A stretch of DNA of 64,000 nt from Chloroflexi bacterium HGW-Chloroflexi-6. Its GTDB lineage: Bacteria > Chloroflexota > Anaerolineae > Anaerolineales > Villigracilaceae. The translations under genes and the position numbers were made by a program. Below are positions 10,471 through 24,897 of the stretch, one piece after another. The stretch lies in assembly GCA_002840685.1 (NCBI GenBank), contig PHBU01000006.1:62001-126000 (forward strand). The letters are read 5' to 3'. The notes under the pieces were generated by a model. It had not been told where the DNA came from, did not search any database, and worked only from the letters and a program-made list of their open reading frames with translations. Every line of letters starts with the position of its first letter. Position 1 is the stretch's first letter.

Positions 10471-11778
10471 CTACCCAGCCTTGGCAACAATATCCTCGAG
10501 CATTTTGGTGCTCAATGATTTGGGACGCTCGAGCGGCTGGCCAAGGGCGCGCGCCCAGACCAGGTTGGCCATCACACCCAAACCGCGCCCAACCCCAAAC
10601 AGGACAGTGTAAAAGTCGAATTCGCGCACGCCGTAGTAATACTGGAGCGTGCCCGAGATCGCATCCACGTTCGGAGCGGGATTTTTGGCCTTGCCCTGCT
10701 CCTTTAAAACAGCCGGGACAACATCGAAAACCATATCCGCCAAACGGACAAGTTCATCCTGCGGGAAGTGAGCCTTGGCATAGCTCATCTGGGCCGTAAA
10801 ACGCGGGTCAGGCACACGCAGCACGGCATGACCGTAACCGGGGATGACTTTGCCGCCGTTGAGCGTGTCCCAGGCGAACTGGTAAAGCTGCTCACGGGAC
10901 GGGACGCCGCCAAGTTTTTTGTGAACATCGATCAGCCAGCCCAGGCATTCCTGGTTGGCAAGGCCATGCAACGGACCGGCCAGGCCGTTCAGGCCGGCAG
11001 AGAAGGCATAGTAGGCATCCGAAAGCGTCGAACCGACCAGGTGGGTGGCGTGGGCCGAAACATTGCCCGACTCATGGTCAGAGTGCAGAATGAAATACAG
11101 GCGCGCTAGGTCGGCATAACCTTTTTCATCTTCAACGCCCATCATGCGGGCAAAGTTCGCACCATAATCGAGCTTGCGGTCATATTTGGGAACGCCGCCA
11201 TCCTTGTATTTCAGGCGATAAATGAAGGCTGCGATGACCGGCAATTTGGCGGTCAGGTTCATTGCATCTTCAAGGGTCGGCTCCCAGTAAGCATCCTTTT
11301 TGATGCCTTCGTGATATTGTTTGGCAAAAAGAGAATCATTTTGCAGCGCCAACACCGCCTGCGAGAGCAGGGTCATCGGGTGGGTGTCTTTGGGCATGGC
11401 CTTGAGCATCTTGAAGACATAGGCCGGCACCTTGGCGCGTTTGGCCCATTCCTTCTCGACCGCTTCAGCCTGACGCTTGGTCGGGACTGCCCCGATCAAG
11501 AGCAGGTAAAACAGACCGCCAACGTAGGGCATTTCGGCCCCATCCGGCTTGGGCAGGGCGGCCAACACTTCAGGGATGGACATGCCGCGAAAACGGATGC
11601 CCTCTGCCGGGTCGACGTAGGAAATATCGGTCACCAGGCTCTTGATGTCGCGCATCCCGCCCACGACCTGTCCGACCGTGACCTGGTCGACCACCACATC
11701 CGCATGTTCCTTGGCCAGGCTTTTCATGCGTTCACGCCACGCAGGCAATTGTGCAGAAATCTTGTCGTGCAGAATCAT
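10471..11778 (-). CDS. gltA: citrate synthase, mitochondrial (type I) subgroup
   Basis: This 435-residue enzyme condenses acetyl-CoA with oxaloacetate at the entry to the TCA cycle. H271 (HGLANQ), H317 (GYGHAVLR) and D372 (NVDAISG) occupy the catalytic positions, each exactly three residues before pig H274, H320 and D375. Blocks such as HSDHESGNVSAHATHLVGS and GQPLERPKS are those of the mitochondrial type rather than the usual bacterial GltA. The frame is open upstream to 12042, but the ATG at 11778 has AAGGAG and starts where the family starts. It is downstream of mdh on the same strand. Confidence 0.95.
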   Translation of the reverse strand: MILHDKISAQLPAWRERMKSLAKEHADVVVDQVTVGQVVGGMRDIKSLVTDISYVDPAEGIRFRGMSIPEVLAALPKPDGAEMPYVGGLFYLLLIGAVPTKRQAEAVEKEWAKRAKVPAYVFKMLKAMPKDTHPMTLLSQAVLALQNDSLFAKQYHEGIKKDAYWEPTLEDAMNLTAKLPVIAAFIYRLKYKDGGVPKYDRKLDYGANFARMMGVEDEKGYADLARLYFILHSDHESGNVSAHATHLVGSTLSDAYYAFSAGLNGLAGPLHGLANQECLGWLIDVHKKLGGVPSREQLYQFAWDTLNGGKVIPGYGHAVLRVPDPRFTAQMSYAKAHFPQDELVRLADMVFDVVPAVLKEQGKAKNPAPNVDAISGTLQYYYGVREFDFYTVLFGVGRGLGVMANLVWARALGQPLERPKSLSTKMLEDIVAKAG

Positions 11779-14128: not shown

Positions 14129-15319
14129 TCAACTAAGATATTTCAGTCCCGACCCTGTATTAAATAGAACGATACGCTCGTCGGGCTTGACCCATTTTAG
14201 CTGCTTCAATTTGATCAAAGCGGCCAGGGTGGCGGCCCCTTCTGGCGCGGCAAAAACACCTTCATCCTCGCCCATCTGATGCTGTGCGGCCAGAATGGCC
14301 TCGTCGCTGACCGAGACGGCCGTGCCCTGGCTTTCGTACAAGTCGCGCAAGATGAGATGGTCAGCAAAACTCTTGGGAACGCGCAAACCGGCGGCAATTG
14401 TATGGGCATTAATCCAGAAATCGCAAAAAGAGGCTCCGGCTTTAAAAGCCTTTACCAGCGGGGCGCAGCCTTTGGCCTGCACGGCCACCAGGCGCGGGCG
14501 TTGAGCATTCTCCAGCCAGCCCAGGGCTTCCAGTTCGGCAAAAGCCTTCCATAGCCCGACCAGGCCCGTTCCGCCGCCAGCGGGGTAGATGATCACGTCC
14601 GGCAGGGTCCAGCCAAAGGCTTCGGCCAGTTCGTATCCCATAGTTTTTTTGCCTTCGACCCGGTAGGGTTCTTTAAAAGTGGAAAGATCGAACCAGCCCT
14701 CGGCGCGGGCCTTTTCACCAGCCATGCCCGCCGCTTCGCTGATCAACCCATCGACAAGAACAACCTCCGCTCCGGCCATGCGGCTTTCCTGAACGTTGGC
14801 CACCGGGGTATCTTTCGGCATGAAAATGTGGGCTTTCAGGCCTGCCCGGGCAGCATAAGCAGCCATTGCGCCACCCGCATTGCCGGCAGTCGGAATGATC
14901 ACCCTGCGGACACCCAATTCACGGGCTTTTGAGATGGCGACAGCAATCCCGCGCGCCTTGAACGAACCGGTCGGGTTGCCGCTTTCATCTTTAAGAAAAA
15001 GGTTGGTCAGACCCAGCTTTTCTCCAATTTTCGGCAGGCGCAAAAGCGGCGCATCGCCCTCGCCGAGCGTGATGCAATGCGAAGCAGCCCGGACAGGCAA
15101 AAGTTCGTGCCAGCGCCACATGCCCCAGGGACGGGTGGCAAAATCTTCCCGACGCAGGCTCTTTCGCAGGCCGTCCAGATCGTAATGAGCAAGCAGCGGC
15201 GACTGGCAGTCGAGGCAATAGGTGTTGAGTTCGCTTGCCGAATAAACCTTGCCGCAATCAGAGCAGGCAAGGTGGCTTATATAAGAAAAATCTGTGCCGG
15301 ATTTCGGGGAAGTTATCAT
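14129..15319 (-). CDS. thrC: threonine synthase-like PLP enzyme with zinc ribbon
   Basis: This 396-residue fold-type II PLP enzyme probably converts O-phosphohomoserine to threonine. An N-terminal zinc ribbon (C19, C22, C35, C38) matches the archaeal/plant-like threonine synthase group. PLP would bind K121 in NPTGSFKARG, and the glycine loops TAGNAGG and AGGGTGLVG are present. The lysine motif is SFKAR rather than SFKDR, which some threonine synthase-annotated proteins and threonine deaminases share, so a related lyase activity cannot be excluded. It is the last gene of the sensory operon, 35 bases after a receiver gene. A second enzyme of the family, fused to a receiver, lies two genes upstream. 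Confidence 0.82.
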   Translation of the reverse strand: MITSPKSGTDFSYISHLACSDCGKVYSASELNTYCLDCQSPLLAHYDLDGLRKSLRREDFATRPWGMWRWHELLPVRAASHCITLGEGDAPLLRLPKIGEKLGLTNLFLKDESGNPTGSFKARGIAVAISKARELGVRRVIIPTAGNAGGAMAAYAARAGLKAHIFMPKDTPVANVQESRMAGAEVVLVDGLISEAAGMAGEKARAEGWFDLSTFKEPYRVEGKKTMGYELAEAFGWTLPDVIIYPAGGGTGLVGLWKAFAELEALGWLENAQRPRLVAVQAKGCAPLVKAFKAGASFCDFWINAHTIAAGLRVPKSFADHLILRDLYESQGTAVSVSDEAILAAQHQMGEDEGVFAAPEGAATLAALIKLKQLKWVKPDERIVLFNTGSGLKYLS

Positions 15320-15354: not shown

Positions 15355-15735
15355 TTATTTTGGCGAAGGCACAAACGCTTCAACCCGCGCCCACAACTCG
15401 CGAATGTTGATCGGCTTAGACATATACACATCGCAGCCTGCCTCGAGCGCGTGTTCGGCATCGCCTTTTAAGGCGTTGGCAGTAACGGCAATAATAGGAA
15501 CATGGGCCAACTCGTGTTTGCTGCTGGCGCGCAAACGGCGCGCAACCTCGTAGCCGTCAATGTCAGGCAAGTTAATATCCAGCAAGATCAAATTGACATC
15601 TTCACGTTCCGCAACAGCAATGCCATCCAAACCGTTTTCAGCGCACAAAAGAAAATAGCCGCGAGATTCAAGCGCCCGCCTGACAAGGGTCATATTGTCT
15701 GGATTATCTTCAACATAAAGGATTCTGTTATCCAT
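15355..15735 (-). CDS. single-domain response regulator (DivK/CheY-like)
   Basis: This 126-residue protein is only a receiver domain. The acidic pocket is E9/D10, the phosphorylation site is D53 (LLDINLPDIDG), and T85 and K107 (MSKP) complete the switch. It starts two bases after the stop of the PLP enzyme-receiver gene, with AGAGG inside that gene's end, so the two are translationally coupled. It has no output domain. It may carry phosphate between the nearby kinase and the fused receiver or act by protein binding; this is inference. Confidence 0.93.
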   Translation of the reverse strand: MDNRILYVEDNPDNMTLVRRALESRGYFLLCAENGLDGIAVAEREDVNLILLDINLPDIDGYEVARRLRASSKHELAHVPIIAVTANALKGDAEHALEAGCDVYMSKPINIRELWARVEAFVPSPK

Positions 15736-15737
15736 GG

Positions 15738-17393
15738 CTAACCTCTTTTGTCTTCGCTTTTTTCATCTTCAATGGTATGAACAACTTGTTCGACAAATTT
15801 GCGGGGCGGCAAGGAACCTTTTTGGTAAACGGCCTGGATGTGTCCATTCAAGCGCTTGCGCTCTTCGTTGGTAATGTCTTTGGCGCTGACCACGACAATT
15901 GGAATGTTACGAGTACGCGGGTCGAGTTTCAGCTCTTCGACAAGACCAAATCCGTCGATGCCCGGCATGGTCAAATCGGTAACGATCAAATCGGGCAGTT
16001 TTTGGCGGGCCTGTGAAAGCCCCTCCCAACCATCCCTGGCGTGGTAAACGCGATAGGCCTTGCGCGCCTCCAACAAACGGCGGATCAGCAAGGCATCATC
16101 GTCATTGTCGTCGATCAAGAGAACGGTGGTGGCCTTTTCGTCCAGATTCTCGAGAGCGGCCTGCAGACCTTCGTGCGGAGCGGCCGCCTGGCCTTCGCTC
16201 AAGTGAACATCCACTGCCCACTGGTCGCCAAGGACATGCTTTTCGACCGGGAAAGTGTGGCCGGTGCAATTAACAACAACTGTTTCATCGGGAGAAATAA
16301 TGCCTTCGCGCAGCATTTTCTCCAGCCCAGCAAAAGCGACCGCGGTGGCTGGTTCGACGGCCATGCCTTCGCTTTTTGCCAGAGAACGCATGGCAGAAAA
16401 GGCTTCGGCATCCGTTACCGATTCCATCGTCCCGCCAAACTGGCTGGTCAGGTTCCACAGATAGGTATAAATTTTGCCAGGGTCGCCGGTCGATAGGATA
16501 ATGATGCAGGTATCGGGGATAACCGGTTCAGCAGTATCCTTACCGGCTTTGAAGGCTTTGACCATCGGCGAACAGCCCTCAGCCTGAATGATGGCCAGCT
16601 TCGGCACACGGTCGATAAGCCCCATGGCAAGCATTTCCTTGAATCCCTGGTAAACACCCAGAGGGCCAAGTCCGCCGCTGACCGCCTGGATGTACCAATC
16701 GGGCGCGCGCCAGCCAAGTTGTTCGACCATTTCATAGGCGATGGTTTTCATCGACTCACGGGCCGGGACGGAACCCGCGCCGCGATCCAGCAGAAGGTGG
16801 CGACGCTGGGCAAACTGGGCGGCAATCTGCTTGGTCTGATCGTAGTTACCGCTGACGCGGATCACTTCCGCGCCGAAAAGGGCCGCTTCGCGCAGCTTTT
16901 CCTGCGGCACGAGGCTGGTCATAAAAACCCACAACTTAATCCCGGCCCGAGCGCAGGCTGCCGCGTAGGCAACTGCTGCGTTACCGGTCGAGGCGATCAC
17001 GGCTTCTTTAACGCCGCCTTCGAGCATGGCCGCAACCGCGACCGCCGCCTGGCGATCCTTGAAAGAGCTGGTCGGTCCGTAGCGCTCATCCTTGATGTAA
17101 ACATTGTTATTGCCAAGCGGCGGGGCAAAACGCTGGGAAAGCCAGAGCGGGGTGCCGCCTGCCGGGTATAAATCGAGGGCAGAAGGGTTGTCGATGGGCA
17201 AAATATCCTGATAGCGCCAAAGGTTGAACTGTCTGCCCGGCATTCCACGCAAAATTTGACGCTTGAAAGCATCAAAATCATACTGAGCTTCAAGCCACTG
17301 CGAACCACACTGACTGCAAATTGCCGGGACAAAGGGTTCATAAGGCTGCTGGTGACTACAAACAGCACATTCTAAGAATTTTGGAATAGACAT
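15738..17393 (-). CDS. threonine synthase-like PLP enzyme fused to a receiver domain
   Basis: This 551-residue protein joins two complete modules. Residues 1-395 are a threonine-synthase-type PLP enzyme: zinc ribbon C9, C12, C26, C29; PLP lysine K112 in GPTSSFKDR; STGNAAVAYAAA; SGGLGPLGV. After a linker of about 25 residues, a full receiver domain (about 422-545) has D428/D429, phospho-acceptor D473 (VTDLTMPGIDG), S503 and K525. Nothing appears degenerate. The start lies one base after the histidine kinase stop. Phosphorylation by that kinase could regulate the enzyme. The reaction is probably threonine synthesis or a beta-replacement/elimination, but the substrate is not proven. Confidence 0.9.
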   Translation of the reverse strand: MSIPKFLECAVCSHQQPYEPFVPAICSQCGSQWLEAQYDFDAFKRQILRGMPGRQFNLWRYQDILPIDNPSALDLYPAGGTPLWLSQRFAPPLGNNNVYIKDERYGPTSSFKDRQAAVAVAAMLEGGVKEAVIASTGNAAVAYAAACARAGIKLWVFMTSLVPQEKLREAALFGAEVIRVSGNYDQTKQIAAQFAQRRHLLLDRGAGSVPARESMKTIAYEMVEQLGWRAPDWYIQAVSGGLGPLGVYQGFKEMLAMGLIDRVPKLAIIQAEGCSPMVKAFKAGKDTAEPVIPDTCIIILSTGDPGKIYTYLWNLTSQFGGTMESVTDAEAFSAMRSLAKSEGMAVEPATAVAFAGLEKMLREGIISPDETVVVNCTGHTFPVEKHVLGDQWAVDVHLSEGQAAAPHEGLQAALENLDEKATTVLLIDDNDDDALLIRRLLEARKAYRVYHARDGWEGLSQARQKLPDLIVTDLTMPGIDGFGLVEELKLDPRTRNIPIVVVSAKDITNEERKRLNGHIQAVYQKGSLPPRKFVEQVVHTIEDEKSEDKRG

Positions 17394-17394
17394 G

Positions 17395-19266
17395 CTACTT
17401 TACCATTTTCTCGAGGTCTTGACTGCTTTTTGCTTCAAGCAGCATTTCAACAAAGAAAGTTGAACCTTCACCTGCAATACCGCTGCTTTCAGCCCACATT
17501 CGACCGCCATGCATCTCAACCAAACGGCGGCTGATGGGCAAGCCCAGGCCAGTGCCACCGGCCTTGCGAGTGGTGGAGGTGTCAACCTGTGAGAATTCCT
17601 GAAAAACAGATTCGAGGTGGTCCGCCGGGATACCAATGCCGGTATCCTTGACACGGATCATAATCTTATCAGTATCCACCCGGTCAACACGCATGGTCAC
17701 CTGGCCTTTCTCGGTGAATTTGAGCGAATTATTGACCAGATTGATCATCACCTGGCGAACGCGGGTGACATCCGCAAAAATTTCCACACTTTCATCCGAG
17801 TCCGGCTCAACGAACAGGCCCAGGTTCTTATCATTGGCCAGGGTGGATGTGATGCTGGCAACTTCGTCGAAGACTTCATGAATCCGGACTTTCTCAAAGT
17901 GCAGGTTCATGCGTCCGGATTCGATCTTGGCCATATCCAGAACATCATTGATCAGGTGCAAAAGATGCTGTCCATTTTTCTGGATCAGCCGCAGATCGTT
18001 ATCCATGTACTCGGTCAACGGACCGTCAATGCCTTCCAGCATGACATCAGAGAAGCCAAGGATGGAGTTAAGCGGGGTGCGTAACTCATGGCTCATGTTC
18101 GCCAGGAAAGCCGATTTCAAACGATCGAGTTCCTGTAGTTCGGCAGCGCGCTTTTGCAGTTCTTCTGTCAGACGCAGGGCTTCGAGGTGGACGCTGGTTT
18201 GGGCCGCGATCGCAGCCAACAACTCTTCGACTTCAGGTGAAATTTCGGCAAGACCGGCCACTGAGATCTGGCCGATCGTCTCGCCCCGCACCATCAGCGC
18301 ATGAGACAGGCTGATGTCGGCAGGCGTTTCGGTCAGCGGCAAAACCTGGTTCGAATCATAGATAAAGCCCAGGGCCGATTCTTCCTTGCCTTCCGCATAG
18401 GCTTTCCAACTGTCATGCGCCATGCGGCGCGTGGCTTCTTCGGCTTCAGCACGGGCACGCGAGGCATCGGCCAAAAGGCGCAAGTTTTCAACCTGCTGGC
18501 CCAACTGGCGCGCTACAGCCGAAACCATGGATTTGTCTTCATCGGTCAGCGGGCTGCCCGGGCTGGATTTCAGGGATAGCTTCCCGATATGTTCTTCCAT
18601 GACAGACACGCTAGCGTCATAGTCAGCATCTGCCGGGGATAAGTCTGTGTAAGGCTCAACGCCATTCTGGTCATAAACATAGCCAACCCGTTCGCTTTGC
18701 TGAATGCCATCCAGAAACGATTCCCAGCTCTCATGGGCAAAACGCCGGGTGGCTGCCTGGGCTTCTGCGCGCGAGCGCTCGGCAGCAGACAGAAGCCGCA
18801 GGTTCTGAATTTGGAGCGACATCTGGCGCGCTACAGCTTTGGCAAGTTCAGCCTCGTCGGTTGTCCAGGTGCGGTCAGATGGAGGTTCCACCAGCACTGT
18901 ACCGATCGGTTTATCGGTTTCGGTCAATTGAGCCAGCAAAGCATCGCGCACATCCAGCCCTGGCAAGATCGAATCCTTTATCGGCTCTAGATCTTCTCCC
19001 GTATAAGCAAAGCCAACCTGCTCTTTTTCATAAAGAATGGGCGCGACGGGTCGGGCATGAACAGGCAAGGATTCATCCTGCGCAGGCTGAACCGACTCAC
19101 CAACAAAGCCACTGGACTGAACCTGGTTTTCCATCTCGGCAACCCGCAGCTTGAGCTGTTCCAACTCGCGGCGCATGACAGCCACATCGAGCTGCGGGTG
19201 GGTCGCAAGATGCTCGATATCCGAGAACAGCGCATCAATCCGTTTTTGGAATTGGTGGTTGGGCAT
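17395..19266 (-). CDS. soluble multi-GAF-like sensor histidine kinase
   Basis: This 623-residue kinase has no TM helices. It has an N-terminal coiled coil (about 28-50), three successive divergent GAF-like modules (about 70-165, 180-280, 285-385) joined by A-RRxAHxSW linkers, and a HisKA domain with H393 ([11 protein letters not shown]). The HATPase domain contains the N box [13 protein letters not shown]1 DTGIGIP and G2 GTGLGLPIS. It is the only complete kinase in the eight-gene operon. The following gene, a PLP enzyme with a receiver, starts one base later. The ATG has AGGAG seven bases upstream. The input is probably protein-protein contact with the three kinase-less sensors, which is inference. 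Confidence 0.93.
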
Positions 19267-19292: not shown

Positions 19293-22200
19293 TTACTTGT
19301 TTTCTTTCATGCTCAACTGGGCAATCGTGCGAGGCGCACCCAGGGCATGACCCAATTCACGAGCCGCGATTTGCAAAACGGCTTCAACTGAAGTGGCGCT
19401 TTGAATCTTTTGGCTGATGGCGTTGAGCATTGCTTCGCGATCGGCCTGACGTTGAGCGCGGGCAAAAGAGCGCGCATTCTGCAGGGCTGTCGCAACCTGC
19501 GCCGCCAGGGTGGATTGAATACTGACATCTTCATCGCTGAAAGCATTCAAGCGGTCCGATTGAACATCGAGCACGCCCAAGATTTCATCACCGATCACCA
19601 GCGGGACGGCCAACTCTGACTTTGTATCTGGCAGGAGTGGGTTGGGCAACCAATCCGGGCTGGAATGGACATCATTGACCACCACCGGGGCGCGGTTACG
19701 GGCAGCTCGCGCAACCAGCGATTGTTCCTGATCAAGCGGGATGGTGGTTGTGCCATGCGTACCTTCATGCTCATCGCCTTCCTTATAACCGCAAGCTACA
19801 ATCTCGAGCATTTTGCTGTTTTCATTGTAGGTAAAGACATGTGCATGATATAGACCAAAACGGCGCTGCGTAAGGTGCACCACCGTGGCGAGCATTTTTT
19901 CAATGTCCAGTTCGCGGGAGGAGATCGTACTGATCTCAGATACAGCCGCAAGCTGACGAGCGCGCTTGGTCAATTCCACCTGGCCAAGCTGGGTTTCTTC
20001 GAGCAGGCGCAAGCCTTCAATATGCTCGCTCAAACGCTCCGAAACCGCATTGATAAGAGCAAGCGTTTCGGCGTCCGGAGATTCTTCAAGCCCAGCCACG
20101 GCCAAATTGCCAATGGTCTCATCGCGCACTTTGATCGGGGTGGAAAATGCGGTAGAAGTGTCAAAAGAATCGCCCGGTTCGTGCGCTTTAACTTCTTTCA
20201 AATCATATAAATAACTCAGGTTCTGTCCAGACTTGGCCTTGAAGTACTCTTCCCAACCTTCACGAGTCAGGCGGCGGGTGGATTCTTCAGCTTCAAAACG
20301 GTAGCGCTCGGCAGTGTCCAACAAGCGCAGGTTTTCGATTTGTTGGGCAACCTGGCGGGCAACGATATTAACCAACTCAACAGTTTGAGGGGTCTGACGT
20401 TCCTGTTCCATATCAACAACCAGGGAACCGATCTTCTGGCCAGTCAGCGAAATCGGCACAGCCAGCGAATCAGCCTGGTTTTCAGCGGGCAAGGCTTCCG
20501 AATTTTCAAGCGGAACGATCTCATTTTTCTCAAAAGCAAAGCCGGCTTGTTCAGGCTTATTAATGGCGTTCAAATAATCCTGCCAACCAGCGCGCACCAG
20601 GCGGCGGGCCTGGATCTCAACCTCGGCGCGGGCTTGCTCAGCTTGTTCAAGCAGGTTGGCATTTTGAATGGCAACCGCAATCTGCCCGGCCAGGGCTTCA
20701 AAAGCCGGCAGGTTGTCCAGATTAAGCGCGTTGGCTTCGGCACTTTGCAGGTCGAGCACACCCACTACTTGATCTCCGAGCGATAGGGGCACCGCCATTT
20801 CTGAACGAGTCTCAGGCAAGAGTGGGTTGGGCCGGAATGAAGGACTGTCAGCGGTATCGGACACAACCACCGAACGCTTTTCGATCGCAGCACGCCCGTT
20901 AATGGAAGCTGTGTTCAGCGGCAGGCGGTGACCACGCCCAACGAGTTCCTCACCAACCTTGCCTGTGCCAGATTGCAAAACAAGGTTCGTTCGGCTGGCG
21001 TCTGTAAGATATACCTGAACATAGTAAAGGTCAAATTGGGTACGGACAATTTCAGCAGCATCGCGCAGCATCTCATCCAGCGCGCGTACCCGAGAAACCG
21101 AACGGCCTACTTCAGCGGCCAACTCCAAACCGCGCGTGCGGTGTGCAATACGTTGTTCAAGCGTCCCGAACAAGTTTTGCAACTGGGAAATCATCAAATT
21201 GAAAGCATTTGCCAATACGCCGGTTTCATCTTTCGCCTGTACGTCGGCCGTAACATTCAAGTTACCTTGAGAAACCGCAAACGCCACTTCGGTCAGGGAG
21301 CGCATTGGGCGAACAATTTGGCCGCTCAAGAACCAGAGCAGAGCCAGGGCCAACAAAACCAGAATAGCGCTGATCGCTGCTTCACGCGCAGCCAGCGCAG
21401 TTGCTTCAGCCGTGATCTTTGATACCGGGATGATCAGGCTAAATGACCAATGAGTGCCCGTACGTCCCAGGTCCACTGGCGCAAAAACGCGCAGGTACTG
21501 CCCATCAGGAGTATTGTTAAAGAAAGACTCGCCTGCTGCAATACGATCTTGAAACTCTGCAAAATCAGGATAGATTTGATCCACCGATTGGGTTACCAGT
21601 TCAGGCTGGCCACTGACACCAAGCAACGTTCCGGAAGAAGTGAACAAAACAGCACGAGCTGTTCCATCGTAGAGATCGATCGAGTCAACAAGTTCCTGAA
21701 CAAAAGAGATCGGAGAATCGATCCCGGCAATGCCATAGAACTTGCCCTGATAAACCACCGGCGCTACAAACGAGGCCATCACAGTGTCGACACCCTGAAT
21801 TGGGTAGATAAGCGGGGCAACAACAACTTCATTTTTTGACAAGCGCGGGAACAAGTACCAGTCACCAATACCAGGGGTTTCATACTGCTCAAGGGCAATA
21901 ACACTGAGACTTCCATCGTCGCCGCGAACCCAATAGGGGATAAAGCGGCCGGTCTCATCGTGCGCAGGTTTTCCGGCATAGGCGGCATCCCGCCCGTCAA
22001 AAGCATTCGGCTCCCAAAGGGTGTAAGTGCCCAGAAAAGTCGGGTTTTCGATCAAAACCTGGCGCAGCATGGCATTGACCTGGGTGCGGCTCAAGGAAGC
22101 GTTGGCCCCCGAATCGGCAACAGCGGTAAAGGCCTGCGCCAGGGCGCGGGCTGTATCCAACGGGATTTCCGCTTCCGCGCGAATGAACCCTGCCTGCGCT

Positions 22201-22907
22201 TCTGCATCAGACAAAACATCGCTTTCAGCAAAACGAATGGCTTCCTGGCGGGAGGTGATCACCGAATAAGCAACCAGAATGGTAGAAACTACCGCCAGGG
22301 TCAGGCCCATCCAAATTGTGATCTTTAATTGCAGGCTGGATTCAATGGTTTCGCGATATTGGAAATACAGAAAGACGATCATCACCAATAGAATAACCAC
22401 GGTAATGACCGGCAAGAATATCTGAATTTCAGGCACAAATAAACGATATTCCAACCCTATAAAGTCGAGCGCTGCGGCCAAAACTCCCAGGGCAATGCTG
22501 GCGATCACCGCATTTCTCGCCTGGGCAGGAGGCAGGGTTTGCCCGGCAACAGTGATTGTCAGCAAAATCAGCGCGCCGCCAAAAATAATACCGATATTTG
22601 AGATCAGGGCACCCGCGGCAGGGAATACGATCAACATACCCACAATCATCAGCCAACTGCCAGTCTCCACATGTCCCTGCCGAATCAGGGGAAGCGCAAC
22701 AATGTTTGCGAGGCAAAAGAACGCGATCACACCGGCCAGGGCGTACATCTGCCACGCGCCCATTTGCACAGCAAGGAACAAGTAAAATGCTTCGACCGTG
22801 AATGCCGCAACCAGCATAATGATCGCCACGCGAAACACGCTGTTTACCTTTTTGGTGTTTTGGGCAGCAAGCTCTTCAGGGGTTAATATTGGATTGGATT
22901 GAGTCAT
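19293..22907 (-). CDS. polytopic Cache-HAMP-GAF sensor lacking an output kinase
   Basis: The protein has 1204 residues. Roughly six TM helices (about 25-190) precede a further TM helix (about 200-220) and an extracytoplasmic double-Cache region (about 230-500). Another TM helix and a HAMP (about 505-580) follow, then a GAF domain (about 600-750, RPNPLLPETRSEMAVP), two divergent GAF-like modules (about 765-990), a canonical GAF (about 1000-1150, GLYHAHVF and WLPNPLLPDTKSELAVP), and a 55-residue tail resembling the start of another GAF. No HisKA, cyclase, GGDEF or methyl-accepting domain is present. GGGAG and TTTCAAA precede the ATG, as in its paralogue at 24898-27867. Confidence 0.88.
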   Translation of the reverse strand: MTQSNPILTPEELAAQNTKKVNSVFRVAIIMLVAAFTVEAFYLFLAVQMGAWQMYALAGVIAFFCLANIVALPLIRQGHVETGSWLMIVGMLIVFPAAGALISNIGIIFGGALILLTITVAGQTLPPAQARNAVIASIALGVLAAALDFIGLEYRLFVPEIQIFLPVITVVILLVMIVFLYFQYRETIESSLQLKITIWMGLTLAVVSTILVAYSVITSRQEAIRFAESDVLSDAEAQAGFIRAEAEIPLDTARALAQAFTAVADSGANASLSRTQVNAMLRQVLIENPTFLGTYTLWEPNAFDGRDAAYAGKPAHDETGRFIPYWVRGDDGSLSVIALEQYETPGIGDWYLFPRLSKNEVVVAPLIYPIQGVDTVMASFVAPVVYQGKFYGIAGIDSPISFVQELVDSIDLYDGTARAVLFTSSGTLLGVSGQPELVTQSVDQIYPDFAEFQDRIAAGESFFNNTPDGQYLRVFAPVDLGRTGTHWSFSLIIPVSKITAEATALAAREAAISAILVLLALALLWFLSGQIVRPMRSLTEVAFAVSQGNLNVTADVQAKDETGVLANAFNLMISQLQNLFGTLEQRIAHRTRGLELAAEVGRSVSRVRALDEMLRDAAEIVRTQFDLYYVQVYLTDASRTNLVLQSGTGKVGEELVGRGHRLPLNTASINGRAAIEKRSVVVSDTADSPSFRPNPLLPETRSEMAVPLSLGDQVVGVLDLQSAEANALNLDNLPAFEALAGQIAVAIQNANLLEQAEQARAEVEIQARRLVRAGWQDYLNAINKPEQAGFAFEKNEIVPLENSEALPAENQADSLAVPISLTGQKIGSLVVDMEQERQTPQTVELVNIVARQVAQQIENLRLLDTAERYRFEAEESTRRLTREGWEEYFKAKSGQNLSYLYDLKEVKAHEPGDSFDTSTAFSTPIKVRDETIGNLAVAGLEESPDAETLALINAVSERLSEHIEGLRLLEETQLGQVELTKRARQLAAVSEISTISSRELDIEKMLATVVHLTQRRFGLYHAHVFTYNENSKMLEIVACGYKEGDEHEGTHGTTTIPLDQEQSLVARAARNRAPVVVNDVHSSPDWLPNPLLPDTKSELAVPLVIGDEILGVLDVQSDRLNAFSDEDVSIQSTLAAQVATALQNARSFARAQRQADREAMLNAISQKIQSATSVEAVLQIAARELGHALGAPRTIAQLSMKENK

Positions 22908-22934
22908 TTTGAAACTCCCATTCTCACGATCGAA

Positions 22935-24839
22935 TTAATTCTGGTTGGCTTGATCAGCCGGGTTGGTATCCAGGCCAATACTGGCGCGCACACTTGTAGC
23001 ACCAAGCGCCAAACCAACTTCGCGAATAGCTGTTTGCAAGGCTTCTTCCATCGAAGCAGTACGCTGAATCTTTTGCCCAATAACGTTTACGAGAGCTTCC
23101 AACTCCGCCTTAGAGCGCGATTGCTCAAAAGAGATGGCATTTTGCAAAGAAATCGCAACCTGGCCAGAGAGTGATTGCAGCAGGGCAATATCGTTTTCAT
23201 CGAGGCCGTTGACCACATTATGCTGCACATCCAGAACGCCCAGAACCTTGTTACCCATCGAAATCGGGACAGCTGCTTCTGATAGCGTTTCTGGCAAAAG
23301 TGGGTTGGGCAGCCAACCAATCGACTGGGATACATCCGCAACAAGCACCGGTGCATTGGTTTCAGCAGCCCGTCCAACCAGGCCGCGGCCTCTTGGAATT
23401 CTATGTCCACTGGCCAGCATCGCTGCACCAGCCTCTCCAGTCCCCCCGGCCATCACCAAATTTTCATTGTCATCATCAAAAAAGTAGATGTGAGCATGAT
23501 AATAATTGAAAGCGGATTGAACTTGTTCCACCACTTCTCTTGCAAGCGTTGGCTTATCCAAAATAGTGGAGAGACGGCGGCTAACATCGGAAGAAGTTGC
23601 AAGGGCTTTGGTACGATCTGCAACACGTTGTTCAAGGGAAATCTGGGTATCCTGTAATTCCTTGTTGCTCAGCACAAGTTGTTCCTGGGCAATGCGGCGC
23701 TGGTTGTTATTGACGAGCAAAAAAGCGATGACAAATAACATGAGCACAAAACCAATGATAATCGTCCAGATAAGACCCGTGTTTTGCTCATAAAAGGAAA
23801 TCGGGCGATCAATCACCAAGCTGCCTTCTGGCAAACGAGATATGTTAATGTTCCATTTTTCCAGAGTGTTGTAGTCAAACATGTACTGACTTTGAGTTTG
23901 TTTTTCCACGGGAATAGTTCGCGGAGACTCGCCATTCAAGATGCGAATCGCCATTTTTGCAGCCCGTTGCCCTTCTGTATAACCGCTGGTCAGTTTACCT
24001 CCTACAATCCCATACCCCAGGCTAAAATCCCAGGTGCCATAAACCGGCACAGCGCTACTTTGAGCAACAAGGGTAGTGTATTGATCATATTCAAAGAATG
24101 TCCCAGCTTTATCTCGAGAAAAAATTGTTAATAACACGAGCGTGTCTGATGTTAAAGAGCCAGTACGACTCTGAACTTCTTGAATCGTAACATCCTCAAG
24201 GAGTTCAAAAGTGATTTGAGGATACTGAGGAATCACATCTTCCAAGATTTCATGAACTATCTTCCCTGTAGTAGTTGTGTCATTGACAACCACAACTTTT
24301 CTAACGTTAGGATGAATACTTAGAGCAACATCCAGCGTTCCGGAGATATCTGCCTCTTCACTGACACCAGTGAAACGCTCATAACCAGCCAGGCGAGAAT
24401 TATCAAAAAAGTTGGCACCGACAAAAACCACAGGCACATCCGGAAACAGGCTATCTGCATTTTTGAACAAAAAGTTCAAAGCAGCATCGTCCGATGACAA
24501 AATCAAATCAAGTCGAGCATCTTTATATTTAGTTTGATAAAGTTTTTTAACCTGATCTAAATATTGGGCATTATCAACACGCTTCGTATCCAGATATTCG
24601 ATACGCAAATCAATGTTGCCTTGCTCAGCAAAAGTCTCTGACAGCGCACGCGTAATATCATCTGAAAATTTATAACCCGGATGATAGGAATTTATAAACA
24701 AAACTTGTTTACGCGCAGACTGGGCTACAGCTGGGGATGGATGTATAGCGCCAAAAGCAAGCAAAGCCAAAACTGTTGCAAAAAGTAATGAGCGAAGACA
24801 GCTTGAGATGCTTGTGATCCTTGATTTTTTTGTCATCAT
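22935..24839 (-). CDS. periplasmic-binding-domain/TM/GAF sensor lacking an output kinase
   Basis: This 634-residue protein has a signal peptide (about 1-40, ending near PAVAQS). A periplasmic domain (about 45-335) of the ABC_sub_bind type follows, containing INSYHPGYKFSDDI and DVPVVFVGANFFDN. Next come one TM helix (about 350-372), a coiled coil, a GAF domain (about 425-575; AFNYYHAHIYFF, WLPNPLLPETLSEAAVP) and a tail shared with the flanking sensors. No transmitter domain is present. The ATG at 24839 has GAGGA upstream; an open frame to 24893 has no such support. The gene is more AT-rich than its neighbours at its 5' end. It should sense a small ligand outside the cell. Confidence 0.85.
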   Translation of the reverse strand: MMTKKSRITSISSCLRSLLFATVLALLAFGAIHPSPAVAQSARKQVLFINSYHPGYKFSDDITRALSETFAEQGNIDLRIEYLDTKRVDNAQYLDQVKKLYQTKYKDARLDLILSSDDAALNFLFKNADSLFPDVPVVFVGANFFDNSRLAGYERFTGVSEEADISGTLDVALSIHPNVRKVVVVNDTTTTGKIVHEILEDVIPQYPQITFELLEDVTIQEVQSRTGSLTSDTLVLLTIFSRDKAGTFFEYDQYTTLVAQSSAVPVYGTWDFSLGYGIVGGKLTSGYTEGQRAAKMAIRILNGESPRTIPVEKQTQSQYMFDYNTLEKWNINISRLPEGSLVIDRPISFYEQNTGLIWTIIIGFVLMLFVIAFLLVNNNQRRIAQEQLVLSNKELQDTQISLEQRVADRTKALATSSDVSRRLSTILDKPTLAREVVEQVQSAFNYYHAHIYFFDDDNENLVMAGGTGEAGAAMLASGHRIPRGRGLVGRAAETNAPVLVADVSQSIGWLPNPLLPETLSEAAVPISMGNKVLGVLDVQHNVVNGLDENDIALLQSLSGQVAISLQNAISFEQSRSKAELEALVNVIGQKIQRTASMEEALQTAIREVGLALGATSVRASIGLDTNPADQANQN

Positions 24840-24897
24840 TTTTTTATCCTCGAATGAAATGCTGTACAGTTCACAAAATTGCCAATCACCCATATTT

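Follow-up and report, generated by a model that had tools for sequence, protein, structure and literature searches.

The window analysed here, i.e. the whole stretch of 64,000 nucleotides, contains a run of minus-strand genes which, read in the direction of transcription, encode an ABC_sub_bind + GAF protein, a PDC/Cache + HAMP + GAF protein, a histidine kinase, a fusion of a PLP enzyme with a receiver domain, a receiver-only protein and an unfused threonine synthase, ThrC (Table 1). A preliminary description of this DNA had placed the fused gene at 15738..17393, which is correct, and had left its strand unstated; the open reading frame runs on the minus strand, from 17393 to 15738, and the plus-strand reading of the same segment has four internal stops. 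The spacing given there was accurate as well: the kinase stop (17395) lies 1 base before the ATG of the fusion, and 2 bases separate the fusion stop (15738) from the receiver-only gene, which starts at 15735. Such tight spacing suggests that the kinase, fusion and receiver-only genes may be co-transcribed and translationally coupled.

Table 1. Genes and protein features at the locus, with positions in the window (residue numbers refer to the encoded proteins)
Feature	Position	Strand	Basis
Putative sensor, ABC_sub_bind + GAF, 652 aa	22935..24893	minus	Pfam
Putative sensor, PDC/Cache + HAMP + GAF, 1204 aa	19293..22907	minus	Pfam
Histidine kinase, 623 aa, without a membrane sensor of its own	17395..19266	minus	HisKA 384-451 and HATPase_c 499-609 complete (Pfam)
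PLP enzyme-receiver fusion, 551 aa, made up of zinc ribbon, PALP (fold of threonine synthase) and receiver	15738..17393	minus	ORF, ATG start; Pfam
N-terminal zinc-ribbon pattern, residues 1-40, C9 C12 C26 C29	17274..17393	minus	57/57 sequences
PALP domain, residues 78-380	16254..17162	minus	Pfam PALP match 78-378, 238.7 bits
PLP lysine K112, within SSFKDR	17060-17058	minus	Alignment of relatives, 57/57
Linker, residues 381-420, with E-G-L-x-x-A-L at 408-414	16134..16253	minus	Alignment
Receiver, residues 421-540	15774..16133	minus	Pfam Response_reg match 424-515, 58.6 bits
Phospho-acceptor D473, in TDLTMPGIDG	15977-15975	minus	Sequence
Receiver S503, in VVSAKD	15887-15885	minus	Sequence
Receiver K525, in YQKGS	15821-15819	minus	Sequence
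Receiver-only protein, 126 aa, D53 T85 K107	15355..15735	minus	Pfam Response_reg 91.8 bits
ThrC (unfused), 396 aa, at the end of the gene run	14129..15319	minus	PRK08197, 575 bits (cut-off 303)

The kinase carries the motif SHELR at residue 392, which places the histidine at position 393, and no kinase domain was found in either of the two upstream putative sensors (Pfam, E<=0.001). Taken with the soluble kinase, the sensor pair (19293-24893, minus strand) looks as though one membrane sensor kinase had been split over three genes.

Conservation was assessed in two alignments, the first consisting of the window protein and 56 relatives (57 sequences), the second of 100 family rows from loci partly overlapping those of the first. 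In the first alignment the PLP lysine K112, the loop S135-T136-G137-N138 and the four cysteines C9, C12, C26 and C29 are present in 57/57 sequences, and so are D429, D473, A504 and K525 of the receiver; at receiver position 503, 32 of them have T and 25 have S. The second alignment gave the same picture, with K112, D429, D473 and K525 in 100/100 rows and, among the rows extending over the zinc-ribbon region, C9 and C12 in 62/62 and C26 and C29 in 64/64. The enzyme half thus has the PLP lysine and the GN loop in a PALP fold, which are the marks of a threonine synthase, and the receiver half has the acidic pocket, phospho-acceptor aspartate, T/S and lysine that mark an enzymatic-output response regulator. 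A pseudo-receiver is ruled out by these intact residues (57/57 and 100/100), a dead enzyme is disfavoured by the intact PLP residues, and both halves of the fusion look functional. Conservation extends into the linker, where E408 is kept in 94, G409 in 99, L410 in 99, A413 in 97 and L414 in 98 of the 100 rows. The mean entropy over residues 407-417 is 0.98 bits, as against 0.91 in the PALP core and 2.03 in the adjoining residues 393-406, i.e. this stretch of the linker is conserved to the same degree as the PALP core.

The in-frame joining of a PLP enzyme to a receiver, as the preliminary description had it, is therefore real, with catalytic and phospho-acceptor residues intact in 57/57 sequences, and it is widespread. 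A homolog search (E<=0.001, 8000 candidates scored) yielded 7229 matches, and both PF00291 and PF00072 are found in all of the 120 that were listed, window protein included. We sampled 400 genomes across the phylum Chloroflexota and found a full-length match (E<=1e-80) in 42 of them, 25 of which belong to the family of the window's genome. Two such matches per genome occur in 15 of the 42, and the window's own genome has a second copy of the fusion with about 50% identity (G000:C37). Of 529 stretches confirmed in named genomes the best 80 were kept; their titles belong to various Chloroflexi groups, Anaerolineae among them, and four are records of cultured Herpetosiphon, including H. aurantiacus DSM 785. 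A fusion unique to one assembly, which the preliminary description had named as grounds for doubt, is excluded, since the fusion occurs in many independent assemblies; an assembly artefact or a frameshift is ruled out on the same basis, Herpetosiphon being among these assemblies. Many members of Chloroflexota thus have a PALP-receiver fusion, usually with a kinase adjoining it.

A search for unfused members of the family was limited by protein length, so that fusions longer than about 530 aa fell outside its candidate range, and 18 of the 120 proteins that it listed have no Pfam receiver. The tails of seven of these 18 were viewed (P0138, P0144, P0170, P0180, P0188, P0214 and P0229); all of them end in the linker or early in the receiver, several with unrelated terminal residues, and the seven look like truncation or frameshift products. 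A quickly built tree with 48 PALP rows places P0138, P0144, P0170, P0188 and P0214 within the fused group, and in it the fused PALP domains together with these five truncated proteins lie on one side of a branch with SH-aLRT 100, opposite the unfused PALP proteins included. The window protein's clade is likewise a single clade (SH-aLRT 100). Because the fused proteins group together, the tree fits one ancient fusion, a reading limited by the long outgroup branches and a warning issued by the program. A partial family protein, P0217, stands under the name Nitrospiraceae, which points either to mis-binning or to transfer to another phylum.

To describe the gene neighbourhood we collected 136 loci (56 unnamed and 80 named, the latter the best of the 529 stretches), which after removal of repeats represent 122 distinct fusions. 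Those scoring at least 650 bits by BLAST against the window protein were assigned to the window clade (A, 62 loci) and the others to B (60 loci). A kinase core adjoins the fusion, and a partner kinase is thereby found, in 102 of the 111 distinct loci in which both flanks are readable: 55/55 in A, 35/39 among the B loci with the plain PALP-REC architecture and 12/17 among those with a PALP-REC-REC protein. In A the kinase core is found no more than 100 nt upstream in 58/58 loci with at least 1.5 kb of upstream sequence. The B PALP-REC kinases lie upstream in 32 loci, four loci have a downstream REC-kinase, and one locus has both. The rule used found no adjoining kinase in nine of the 111 (L066, L067, L086, L098, L159, L160, L162, L163 and L171); one of these, L086, has its kinase divided between two ORFs. 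A kinase invariably upstream is ruled out by these nine loci and by the four B loci with a downstream REC-kinase. The question raised in the preliminary description, whether the fusion is always next to the kinase, is answered positively for the window-clade loci with both flanks readable but not for the family as a whole. In L066 and L067, where no kinase is nearby, a gene of the IF-2B family (MtnA-like; 7574-8650 in L066) precedes the fusion, and PNPase is found further upstream.

We lean, with moderate confidence, towards the reading that the adjoining kinase phosphorylates D473 of the fusion and by doing so likely switches the activity of the enzyme. Since the kinase adjoins the fusion, an outside signal would likely tune the amino-acid enzyme directly and not via its genes. 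It needs to be mentioned that shared regulation alone could also conserve the gene order. Another explanation is that the receiver serves as an assembly module and its phosphorylation is unimportant. There is a direct precedent for this among the extended AAT-fold decarboxylases, PLP enzymes whose N-terminal receiver-like domain is required for assembly of decamers (PMC8503589). However, an assembly wing would need neither the two aspartates, T/S and lysine kept in 57/57 sequences, nor a kinase adjoining in 102/111 loci, and we thus find such a role improbable.

The receiver of the fusion is usually accompanied by a second one. In A the receiver-only gene is the next gene in 54/55 loci, the exception being L054, where an overlapping longer ORF has the receiver at its end. 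In the B PALP-REC loci it is probably the kinase tail that carries the second receiver: counted by length, kinases whose tail extends 110 aa or more beyond the core are present in 31/39, and the one tail checked with Pfam, that of L062, contains two receivers. Downstream REC-kinases (L161 was checked) occur in 4 of these 39 loci. In the 17 PALP-REC-REC loci the second receiver is part of the fusion itself, which is then about 690-718 aa long; this architecture was called by a length of at least 680 aa and confirmed with Pfam in 3/17 (L158, L160 and L162). Aspartate, T/S and lysine are intact in both receivers of 17/17 such proteins, and 16/17 of the second receivers also have the acidic residue that corresponds to D10. 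By our counting rule a second receiver in some form (next gene, kinase tail, REC-kinase or fused) accompanies 105/111 loci, and because of this the receiver-only gene of the window likely does belong to the system.

Several receivers per kinase, with two in the L062 kinase alone, would also suit a phosphate sink or relay, in which the fused receiver drains or forwards the phosphoryl group and a constitutive enzyme is simply attached to it. The conserved linker and the long-kept fusion of two separable genes suggest instead that the two halves influence one another, and we give the sink or relay little probability.

What the enzyme half does is a separate matter. The fusion passes TIGR00260 (thrC; 173.1 against a cut-off of 167.1), which counts against a reading as something other than a threonine synthase. 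It stays below the other threonine synthase cut-offs (PRK08197, 246.2 against 303; PRK05638, 183 against 421; also PRK08329 and PRK06450). D102, R104, D113-R114-Q115, G205, E213, M215, K216 and T217 are present in 100/100 rows of the second alignment. The arginine of the motif R-x-E-G-Q-K-T is, we presume, a ligand of the substrate phosphate. As R-[LI]-E-G-Q-K-T the motif is common to five solved threonine synthases, and the unfused neighbour ThrC has R-V-E-G-K-K-T. At the corresponding family position, 211, arginine occurs in 0/100 rows of the second alignment (A 51, S 40, C 6, N 1, G 1, P 1), a count to be read with the fact that position 212 is arginine in 44/100, so that the alignment at the motif may be one off.

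The window's genome contains four unfused ThrC-like genes, and housekeeping threonine synthesis is therefore probably covered by genes other than the fusion. Two of the four pass a threonine synthase cut-off (L001, 298.3 against 167.1, and the window neighbour, 575 against 303), and the other two (L004 and L007) are below the cut-offs compared. Because of these four genes and the missing motif arginine, we consider it improbable that the fusion is the housekeeping threonine synthase, and a special or conditional role is likely. We infer a substrate that is an amino acid handled like O-phosphohomoserine, in a PLP-dependent elimination or replacement, and it is probably not O-phosphohomoserine itself. 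Of the name threonine synthase used in the preliminary description, the fold and the TIGR00260 match stand, but the activity is doubtful given the motif arginine (0/100). ThrC-like proteins can have other activities (PMC12172450), and, prompted by that work, we considered a MetM-type homocysteine synthase as a candidate activity.

In the window and in 27/62 A loci, as against 1/60 B loci, a ThrC-type gene on the strand of the fusion follows downstream; these counts are limited by contig ends. As enzymes of the threonine-synthase fold are dimers, the fusion might pair with the unfused ThrC encoded nearby into mixed dimers and, as a regulatory partner, control the synthesis of threonine in trans. 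We regard this as very improbable: there is no ThrC nearby in 35/62 A loci (some of them cut by contig ends) and in 59/60 B loci, identity to the neighbour is about 31%, and the fusion has retained its PLP lysine.

The departure of the substrate site from that of threonine synthase leads to a different thought, namely that the PLP domain is a sensor, so that an amino-acid substrate or product sets the phosphorylation or dephosphorylation of the receiver and metabolism feeds into the two-component system. Each system has two receivers, of which the receiver-only protein or the kinase-tail receiver could carry the output, and REC-associated domains may serve as input (PMC5847659). On the other hand, 57/57 sequences have the full set of catalytic PLP residues, which exceeds the needs of binding, and dedicated sensor proteins and GAF domains are already present upstream. 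A sensor role of the PLP domain is thus unlikely in our judgement.

For the reading that we favour, in which the kinase acts on D473, the following course of events can be proposed. Two kinase-less upstream sensors would hand the signal to the soluble kinase, which would autophosphorylate on His393. The phosphoryl group would then pass to D473 of the fusion and to D53 of the receiver-only protein, and the phosphorylated receiver, acting through the E-G-L-x-x-A-L linker, may alter the PLP-domain dimer or the closure of the active site; the second receiver would be a sink or a competing branch. A structure prediction from 102 sequences (pLDDT 82.4, pTM 0.70), which replaced an earlier one from 15 sequences (76.8), has solved threonine synthases as the best fold matches of its PALP part (Foldseek; 1uin_B, for example, at 2.7 A with a target-length TM of 0.82). 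We looked in this model for the arrangement of the receiver relative to the active site and found no confident domain placement; residues 381-388 and 398-420 of the linker are below pLDDT 50, and because of this low confidence the docking of the receiver is not readable from the model.

If this reading is true, a histidine kinase would govern how fast an amino-acid enzyme works through phosphorylation in cis, i.e. post-translationally and bypassing gene expression. The family is old, multi-copy and present in cultured Herpetosiphon, and its natural variants (PALP-REC, PALP-REC-REC, and kinases with or without tail receivers) are material for studying receiver control of enzymes. The altered substrate site hints at an unassigned PLP reaction.

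Some B loci have further neighbours. A transporter cluster lies downstream in 35/60 of them (a count limited by contig ends), and the two members checked are EamA; the EamA-type gene is directly downstream of the fusion in L062 (5034-5978), L073 (5020-5973) and 33 other B loci. It scores 57.8 against the NCBIfam amino-acid/amine transporter cut-off of 230.2, and we regard it as a candidate exporter of the product of the fusion enzyme. In 24/60 B loci (contig ends again limit the count) the kinase is preceded upstream by a gene for a ParA/MinD-like ATPase, of which one was checked; in L082 this gene is at 10934-11722, just upstream of the kinase. A bolder idea, to which we give a rather small chance, is that the immediate output of the two-component system is the synthesis of an unassigned metabolite of the amino-acid type: a phosphorylation-gated PLP synthase, with an EamA-type transporter in one branch as the possible exporter, would let Chloroflexota convert an outside signal to a flux of small molecules, or to a messenger, with no transcription involved.

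A full-text literature search returned no characterised example of the PALP-receiver architecture, in agreement with what the preliminary description had said; subscription papers, among them censuses of response-regulator outputs, lie outside the scope of that search, and the architecture may be listed in those censuses. Its further claim of a new output type does not hold in the broad sense, as REC domains on standard metabolic enzymes are reported in multiple bacterial instances (PMC5847659) and a receiver-like domain is reported on PLP decarboxylases (PMC8503589). Because of these precedents, pairing a receiver with a PLP enzyme does not appear to be new as a kind.

The fusion is close to several known systems and differs from each. 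Cysteate synthase (TIGR03844; PDB 9k3c) is ThrC-derived and matches residues 8-380 of the fusion, but the latter scores 125.8 bits against the TIGR03844 cut-off of 324.9, and this activity was ruled out. ThrC itself (PDB 1uim, 2zsj, 2d1f, 6cgq and 1e5x) shares the fold and the PLP-binding motifs and provides the best PDB matches by both sequence and fold; in contrast to it, the fusion carries a receiver, has the motif arginine replaced and falls short of the PRK08197 cut-off. The Arabidopsis threonine synthase solved together with S-adenosylmethionine (PDB 2c2b) is an example of the threonine-synthase fold with a regulatory ligand, although its control is by ligand and it has no receiver. The extended AAT-fold decarboxylases (LdcI, AdiA and SpeC type; PMC8503589) resemble the fusion as PLP enzymes with an amino-acid substrate that were fused once to a receiver-like domain, but their PLP fold is another one, the receiver is N-terminal and its role is in oligomer assembly; we found no mention of a kinase link in PMC8503589, whose main text has the word "phosphorylation" 0 times. 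With its PALP domain, C-terminal receiver and threonine synthase fold matches, the fusion falls outside that class. Enzymatic-output response regulators (PMC5847659) are similar in joining a receiver to a metabolic-type enzyme and in their narrow spread within one lineage (the fusion having been surveyed in Chloroflexota), while the enzyme of the fusion differs from theirs in being a PLP protein of the threonine-synthase fold.
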